Below, piece by piece: positions 12-1,488 of a DNA stretch of 40,862 bases. The stretch is from NCBI GenBank assembly GCA_012514175.1, contig JAAZAU010000006.1:1-40862 (forward strand), in the 5' to 3' direction. The position numbers and the translations under genes were made by a program. The number at the start of each line of letters is the position of its first letter. The stretch's first letter is position 1. The notes under the pieces were generated by a model. The model was given only the letters and a program-made list of their open reading frames with translations, did no database searches and had not been told where the DNA came from. The stretch is from Parcubacteria group bacterium. Lineage in GTDB: Bacteria; Patescibacteriota; Minisyncoccia; Phycocordibacterales; WO2-35-19.

Positions 12-311
12 TTATTGAATATAGCCCATATCCTTTTCATATTGCCTGTACTTTTCTGTCTTTCTTTTGTAGATGTAGACAACACCATCTCTACGCTCCA
101 ATTCATTTTGACCCTGAACTAAAACAGGTTCCCAAAAACCATCAGCTTTTATTTTTTCTACCCGATCGCAAGCATCATTCCATTGCTCAGTAAATCTTGA
201 ATGAAAAGACCAAACATATTCCCAGCCTTCTTTTTCTAATTCCGCAATCGGTCTTTCTATAGATTCACAGGGCATAGATTTTAATGTCTCTTGTTTTGGT
301 TCTTTTTCCAT
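12..311 (-). CDS. hypothetical protein (99 aa)
   Basis: ORF track; acidic/basic soluble-looking protein; no family recognised. Confidence 0.6.
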   Translation of the reverse strand: MEKEPKQETLKSMPCESIERPIAELEKEGWEYVWSFHSRFTEQWNDACDRVEKIKADGFWEPVLVQGQNELERRDGVVYIYKRKTEKYRQYEKDMGYIQ

Positions 312-480: not shown

Positions 481-509
481 TTGACAAAAAATTGTAAATT
501 TGCTATACT
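481..509 (+). promoter_or_regulatory. sigma70-type promoter of the structured RNA: TTGACA (481-486), 17-nt spacer, TATACT (504-509)
   Basis: read directly; perfect -35, near-perfect -10, optimal spacing. Confidence 0.85.
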
Positions 510-515
510 ATAAGG

Positions 516-710
516 TAGGAGAAGGGTGGTTCGTTGGTCTGTGGACGTTGTGGTCTCGCTCAAACGTAAGCTCCAACAGCGAGACCGCCCATAGAGCAAC
601 GAAGACAGCTCAGTTGAATCTCCTTTTTAGGAGTCCTCGGGTTAGTCCGAGGTAAGACAGAGAGGAAGCATCCTTCTCCCCCACTAACCTAATCGGTAGT
701 GGGGTTTTTT
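516..710 (+). ncRNA. stand-alone structured RNA of unassigned class
   Basis: Strong promoter upstream, intrinsic terminator at the end. Closing helix 518-528/669-679 (GGAGAAGGGUG/CAUCCUUCUCC); long hairpin 530-536/597-603 (UUCGUUG/CAACGAA), 539-544/589-594 (CUGUGG/CCAUAG), 552-560/578-586 (GGUCUCGCU/AGCGAGACC); hairpins 620-623/630-633 and 635-640/647-652. Confidence 0.8.
679..710 (+). terminator. intrinsic terminator CCCCACTA...TAGTGGGG-TTTTTT
   Basis: 8-bp perfect stem 679-686/697-704 followed by T6. Confidence 0.9.
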
Positions 711-750
711 ATTGGTTTTAAAACATCAATCAAAAAGTTATAATTAAAGT

Positions 751-1488
751 ATGAATAAAAAAATTATTTGGAGCGTGGTGGTTGCGGCAATAATCATCTT
801 TGGGTTTTTTGTTTTTAAAGATAAAATAACAATGTTTGAAAGTGAAAAAACAAATCCAGAAAAAATTTTAAATAGTAGTTTTCCCAACGAACATATTGAA
901 AAAAGTATTGTTAATTATTTTCTTGACCAAAAACAATTTAGTTGGAAAACTGAAGTTGGGAGCCATCGTTTTTGCACGATAGAAAATCTAGATCCAGAAA
1001 ATGAATTATTTCCTTTTTATATTTGGATTTATTGCGGTGAATACGCAATGGAAAATGGGGAACTGAAACTACTCAGTGGCTCTTCTGGTCCAGTAAAAAT
1101 AAATTACCCAAACGAATTATCTTTTTATTATTATATGAATAAGTTTTCTCACGAAAAACCAGGTGATGGTTCTCGTTATTCTGAAGACGTAAAAAGAATA
1201 TTCCCCAAACATTTACAACAGAAAATATTAACTTTTGACGCCAATGCAATAGCGCAGAAGAATAAACAATTTAGTCTTGCCGAGATAACTATTTGGGAAT
1301 CAATTAAAGACGCGATCAGAAACTGTGAAGTGAAAAAAGTTTTTCAAAGTCACGATAGAACAGTTCAAGTCAAATTAAAAAACGGTAAAGAGATAGTCGG
1401 AACAGAACCTCAAATTGATGATGTTATGACTCTAATATCGTCCGCAAAAACATATTGTAATAACGATATTATGATTGCAATTGAATAA
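751..1488 (+). CDS. hypothetical protein with N-terminal membrane anchor
   Basis: ORF; N-terminal hydrophobic helix (IIWSVVVAAIIIFGFFVF); own TATAAT (739-744) 6 nt before ATG. Confidence 0.8.
   Translation: MNKKIIWSVVVAAIIIFGFFVFKDKITMFESEKTNPEKILNSSFPNEHIEKSIVNYFLDQKQFSWKTEVGSHRFCTIENLDPENELFPFYIWIYCGEYAMENGELKLLSGSSGPVKINYPNELSFYYYMNKFSHEKPGDGSRYSEDVKRIFPKHLQQKILTFDANAIAQKNKQFSLAEITIWESIKDAIRNCEVKKVFQSHDRTVQVKLKNGKEIVGTEPQIDDVMTLISSAKTYCNNDIMIAIE

Follow-up and report, generated by a model that had tools for sequence, protein, structure and literature searches.

A candidate orphan small RNA gene with a strong promoter and a compact predicted fold in a Parcubacteria group genome

Near the left end of a 40,862-nt stretch of DNA from a Parcubacteria group bacterium (contig 6 of its assembly; hereafter the window, the genome itself being G000), a promoter, a densely paired stretch and a terminator follow one another on the forward strand. 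This arrangement raises the question of whether the locus encodes an RNA acting on its own, a leader of the gene that lies downstream, or a structure devoid of function. Judging from its sequence, we consider positions 516–710 to be an independent small RNA (sRNA) gene with a probability of about 0.65. The best reading of its origin is that of a recently acquired or fast-evolving orphan, confined to the species or to a narrow circle of relatives; thus the RNA is probably real but lineage-specific, and not a member of a widespread new class.

The signals that delimit the putative transcript are listed in Table 1. The promoter, described as optimal in the first-pass annotation, is indeed near-optimal, and reading of the sequence shows that its −10 element is preceded by TG. 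The structured stretch begins about 7 nt past this element and extends for about 190 nt. At the other end, the intrinsic terminator that had been placed at 679–710 was found both by direct reading and by folding. A motif scan overlooked it because its 10-nt loop exceeded the limit of that scan, while the folding computation recovered it. The helix that joins the two ends of the RNA directly abuts the terminator.

Table 1. Features of the candidate sRNA locus and of the neighbouring gene (P, pairing probability; MFE, minimum free energy).
Feature	Position	Strand	Basis
Promoter: TTGACA (481–486), 17-nt spacer, TATACT (504–509)	481–509	+	11/12 consensus positions
Predicted sRNA transcript, including terminator	516–710	+	Distance from −10, fold z-score, terminator at end
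End-to-end closing helix 518–528/669–679, 11 bp	518–679	+	All pairs P ≥ 0.99
Possible 22-codon frame, GTG 526, stop TAG 592–594	526–594	+	Six-frame reading of the transcript
Long arm: helices 530–536/597–603, 538–544/589–595, 550–560/578–588	530–603	+	Pairs mostly P 0.9–1.0
Weak small hairpin 606–609/613–616	606–616	+	P ~0.78
Second arm: 621–628/659–666 around hairpin 635–652	621–666	+	Outer helix P about 0.76–0.92
Intrinsic terminator: stem 680–686/697–703, TTTTTT 705–710	680–710	+	Direct reading; also folds in MFE computation
Promoter-like site of the 751 gene, TTTAAA-16-TATAAT	717–744	+	10/12 positions
Downstream gene, 245-aa protein, no Pfam family	751–1488	+	Open frame; neighbour, outside the RNA gene

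The predicted fold is far more stable than that of shuffled sequence. Its minimum free energy is −89.3 kcal/mol, as compared to −59.7 ± 4.1 kcal/mol in 200 dinucleotide shuffles, none of which was as stable (z = −7.2). Among the 195 near-consensus promoters of the 635-kb genome, only that of tRNA-Tyr is followed by a sequence with a lower energy per base. The model suggests a well-defined, compact two-arm RNA closed by an end-to-end helix. The closing helix and the long hairpin of three helices, both drawn previously, are present in the ensemble, the latter being interrupted by a G537/G596 mismatch and by a 5-nt bulge (545–549), with the outermost pair 530/603 formed at P 0.49. The apical loop of this arm (561–577, 17 nt) is the only long unpaired stretch of the RNA. 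Likewise, the hairpin 635–652 was recovered with its outer six pairs at P = 1.0. On the other hand, a hairpin previously assigned to 620–633 is absent from the best fold, where nucleotides 621–628 pair instead with 659–666, and that helix was probably wrong as drawn. The pseudoknot proposed between ACGUU (545–549) and AACGU (563–567) does not fare better: the complementarity exists, but the 2-nt linker 561–562 would have to span an 11-bp helix, which A-form geometry renders sterically unlikely as long as this stem is intact. From the same geometry, the pairing would need a partial opening of the helix that it crosses.

Does this fold belong to a known class? At the gathering threshold, Rfam 15 reports nothing but three tRNAs in the whole window, in agreement with the earlier statement that the RNA is of no recognisable class. 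Relaxing the threshold to E ≤ 10 yields only weak partial matches which lean on the terminator, the best scoring below half of its cut-off. L10_leader (RF00557) reaches 21.6 bits against a cut-off of 44, and anti-hemB (RF02837) 20.9 bits against 49.5; their likeness to our RNA is limited to a terminator-like 3′ hairpin and scattered letters. The landmarks of tmRNA, RNase P RNA, SRP RNA and 6S RNA had been reported as missing, and a test of each class bears this out. 6S RNA (RF00013 and relatives) resembles the window RNA in its length near 190 nt and in the helix that joins its 5′ end to its 3′ end, but the window RNA lacks the large two-sided central bubble, having 1 nt on the 5′ side against 65 nt on the 3′ side; an RNA of 6S architecture sits on contig 10 instead (see below). 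tmRNA (RF00023) is likewise a stand-alone, structured molecule; the window RNA has neither a tRNA-like end nor a CCA, ARAGORN finds no tmRNA here, and the tmRNA of the genome lies on contig 8. The sole match to RNase P RNA (RF00010) is on contig 4, and for SRP RNA neither an RF00169 match nor, by tblastn, an Ffh gene was detected in the genome. Since RNase P RNA, tmRNA and the 6S-like RNA are located elsewhere and SRP was not detected, the window RNA is none of the usual housekeeping RNAs. The closest likeness is to orphan intergenic bacterial sRNAs as a general kind, with which it shares its own promoter, a strong structure, an intrinsic terminator, a narrow distribution and the lack of a conserved protein frame. 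Typical base-pairing sRNAs have less elaborate folds than this closed-end, multi-branched one.

The first-pass annotation had counted on related genomes to supply a covarying family. Such relatives were not found by any of the searches performed. A covariance model built on the single sequence (R1) retrieved only the RNA itself in 40 relatives and in samples of 397 genomes of the order and 380 of the phylum. No homologue was found by blastn over the relatives, by local cmsearch on G006, G007 and parts of G001 and G002, or in phage and plasmid collections. Exact patterns searched in viral contigs gave one unrelated match for the loop and none for four other patterns. The 17-nt loop occurs 13 times in the genome collection, in unrelated phyla and flanks, where by our own arithmetic about 30 occurrences would be expected in random sequence. 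To judge the reach of blastn and nhmmer at genus distance, the 6S-like RNA of the same genome was used alone as a query, and its counterparts were recovered in G006, G007 and G002 (nhmmer E-values of 9e-18 to 5e-9); the same searches with the window RNA returned only itself below E = 4 (nhmmer) and 1.2 (blastn). The absence of relatives beyond the genus is less certain. Since other promoters of the genome also show the layout TTTGCTATA...GGTAGG, the likeness between the 5′ end of the RNA and other loci probably reflects the promoter and not RNA homology. The failure to recover any homologue counts against the reading as an independent gene.

Much of the window between 14.6 and 40 kb matches two loci of the congener G006 in long collinear runs. 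Because the first 14 kb (1–14 kb) have no such match, the RNA lies in an accessory block that is absent from G006. No convincing defence or phage genes adjoin it, and a simple repeat script found no CRISPR array in the genome. The contig itself starts inside a 99-aa gene (12–311, minus strand), the end of which is repeated on contig 13 (L027, 5.2 kb). Contigs 6 and 13 overlap by 51 bases at their ends, and the repeat together with this overlap probably caused the assembly break.

The main alternative to an independent gene is a cis-acting leader, whose transcription would start at about 516 and either stop at 680–710 or read through into the 751 gene, as in attenuator or riboswitch-like control. 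The two lie on the same strand, and only 40 nt separate the terminator from the start codon. However, the downstream gene has a promoter-like site of its own (717–744), and the fold ensemble shows no sign of an alternative antiterminator. Moreover, the 245-aa protein has clear homologues in G238, G118, G124 and G162, and no comparable RNA was found upstream of the homologues at these four best-matching loci, which disfavours a conserved leader. The strong structure found upstream of the G162 homologue was rejected as a counterpart of the window RNA, being made of unrelated tRNA-like repeats. That region (L118:2020–2450) carries clustered tRNA-like inverted repeats, GGAGGGATTCGAA...GAATCCCTCC, which are very strongly folded and have no Rfam match. 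With the separate promoter-like site and the homologues lacking such an RNA, the original preference for an sRNA over a leader riboswitch holds, and we regard a leader as unlikely.

Somewhat less probable still is membership of the RNA in a family of stand-alone RNAs that evolves very fast and occupies different sites within the genus, with a G006 RNA as its second member. In a structural scan, about 2.2 Mb from five congeneric genomes (G001 and G002 in part) were searched for a promoter, an end-to-end helix located at the start site and a T run further downstream. Only the window RNA and one RNA of G006 (L079, minus strand, about 83–234) united a perfect −35 element with an energy density below −0.45 and a closing helix of 11 bp or more. 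The G006 RNA has the same layout: its promoter is strong, its closing helix measures 13 bp and sits at the start site, and a terminator follows. The two can be aligned end to end, and their ends are similar. However, 15% of dinucleotide shuffles align equally well over the whole length, so that homology is not significant at this level; moreover, their branching differs, and a search of 41 genomes left the G006 RNA an orphan too. We give an equally low chance to the broader proposal that the two represent a new class of strongly promoted, end-closed RNAs whose sites vary by genome and whose divergence defeats sequence searches.

Other promoted and structured stretches were seen in the genus. 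In G006, two tandem RNA-like stretches, each strongly promoted (at 2196 and 1882, minus strand of L086), separate groL from the gene that follows it; in G000, these two genes are about 20 bases apart. G002 (L170:19632–19726, plus strand) and G007 (L145:10529–10616, plus strand) have in common a stand-alone structured element of about 90 nt, 79% identical, with a TTGACA promoter.

It is improbable that the locus is a chance or relic structure without function. No conservation of any kind can be demonstrated for it, and the block that carries it lies at a contig end and is missing from G006; nevertheless, promoter, start-site closing helix and terminator stand in the right order and at the right spacing, and the stability of the fold is that given above. 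Finally, it is very improbable that the transcript encodes a 22-codon peptide whose translation is controlled by the structure, for although AGGAG (517–521) stands 4 nt ahead of the GTG that opens this frame, the start codon is not ATG, the spacing is short, the GTG lies within the closing helix, there is no homologue on which coding could be tested, and frames of such length are common by chance. Thus, the earlier verdict that no credible open reading frame is carried broadly stands, with this frame as a caveat; it lies hidden within the most stable region of the fold and is probably incidental.

As an independent sRNA, the window RNA would be transcribed from its own strong promoter and ended by its own terminator, and, being compactly folded with sealed ends, would be long-lived. 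The 17-nt apical loop of the long arm might then contact a target RNA or protein. Such trans action through the loop is the likeliest mechanism in our view, held only tentatively. When the loop and two further open segments were scanned for duplexes with 610 start regions, no match exceeded those of shuffled queries, and a tblastn search of G000 with the E. coli proteins found no convincing match to Hfq or CsrA. If expressed, the RNA would represent a concrete sRNA gene from a group whose genomes are very small and on whose sRNA genes we found no study in the open literature, and it would indicate that accessory blocks of such genomes can carry highly structured RNA. As an orphan, it opens no general question to testing by itself.

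The comparison with housekeeping RNAs led to results of broader scope. In G000, tmRNA is missed both by ARAGORN and by the RF00023 cut-off, which is passed by 35 of 40 genomes. In relatives, the tmRNA gene adjoins smpB. Beside smpB on contig 8 we found a divergent tmRNA (L044:14421–14875, minus strand), which reads GGCGGGGATGAAAGG...CTCCACCA and is matched by G006 and G007 in blastn; the idea of a genome without tmRNA was therefore rejected. As for SRP, its RNA (RF00169) was not detected in 13 genomes (G000 and 12 relatives). In G000, neither tblastn with E. coli Ffh nor a GTPase-motif scan revealed an Ffh gene, while a GroEL control worked. The SRP may thus be absent from the lineage, the search for Ffh having covered G000 only.

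The RNA of about 150 nt on contig 10 (L024:7343–7490, plus strand) was exposed by the structural scan. It displays a closing stem and a two-sided central bubble, the 3′ side of which holds a hairpin, and the same architecture was found at three further loci (L082:8974–9122, minus strand; L187:11445–11591, minus strand; L173:8435–8561, plus strand). In an alignment of only four related sequences, both partners have changed in nine pairs. One of 500 shuffles attains this number, and the signal is lost once the pairing partners are slid. The derived model matches 29 of 40 genomes at one locus each (E-values of 2e-40 to 7e-3); in G000, this locus also gives a weak antisense match. No Rfam family passed its cut-off for this RNA in the four genomes checked, no relevant match appeared in G000 at E ≤ 5, and we found nothing on it in the open literature on 6S RNA in this group. 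The contig-10 RNA is probably the 6S RNA of the order. Its presence across the order may matter more than the window RNA, and both this RNA and the apparent lack of SRP pose testable questions.

Finally, contig 3 of the same genome carries a sequence resembling the hammerhead type III ribozyme (L041:16608–16693, plus strand; 34.2 bits, E = 4.6e-6, below the 48.5-bit cut-off). It has an intact CUGAUGAG...CGAAAC core and lies about 110 nt past the 5S rRNA.
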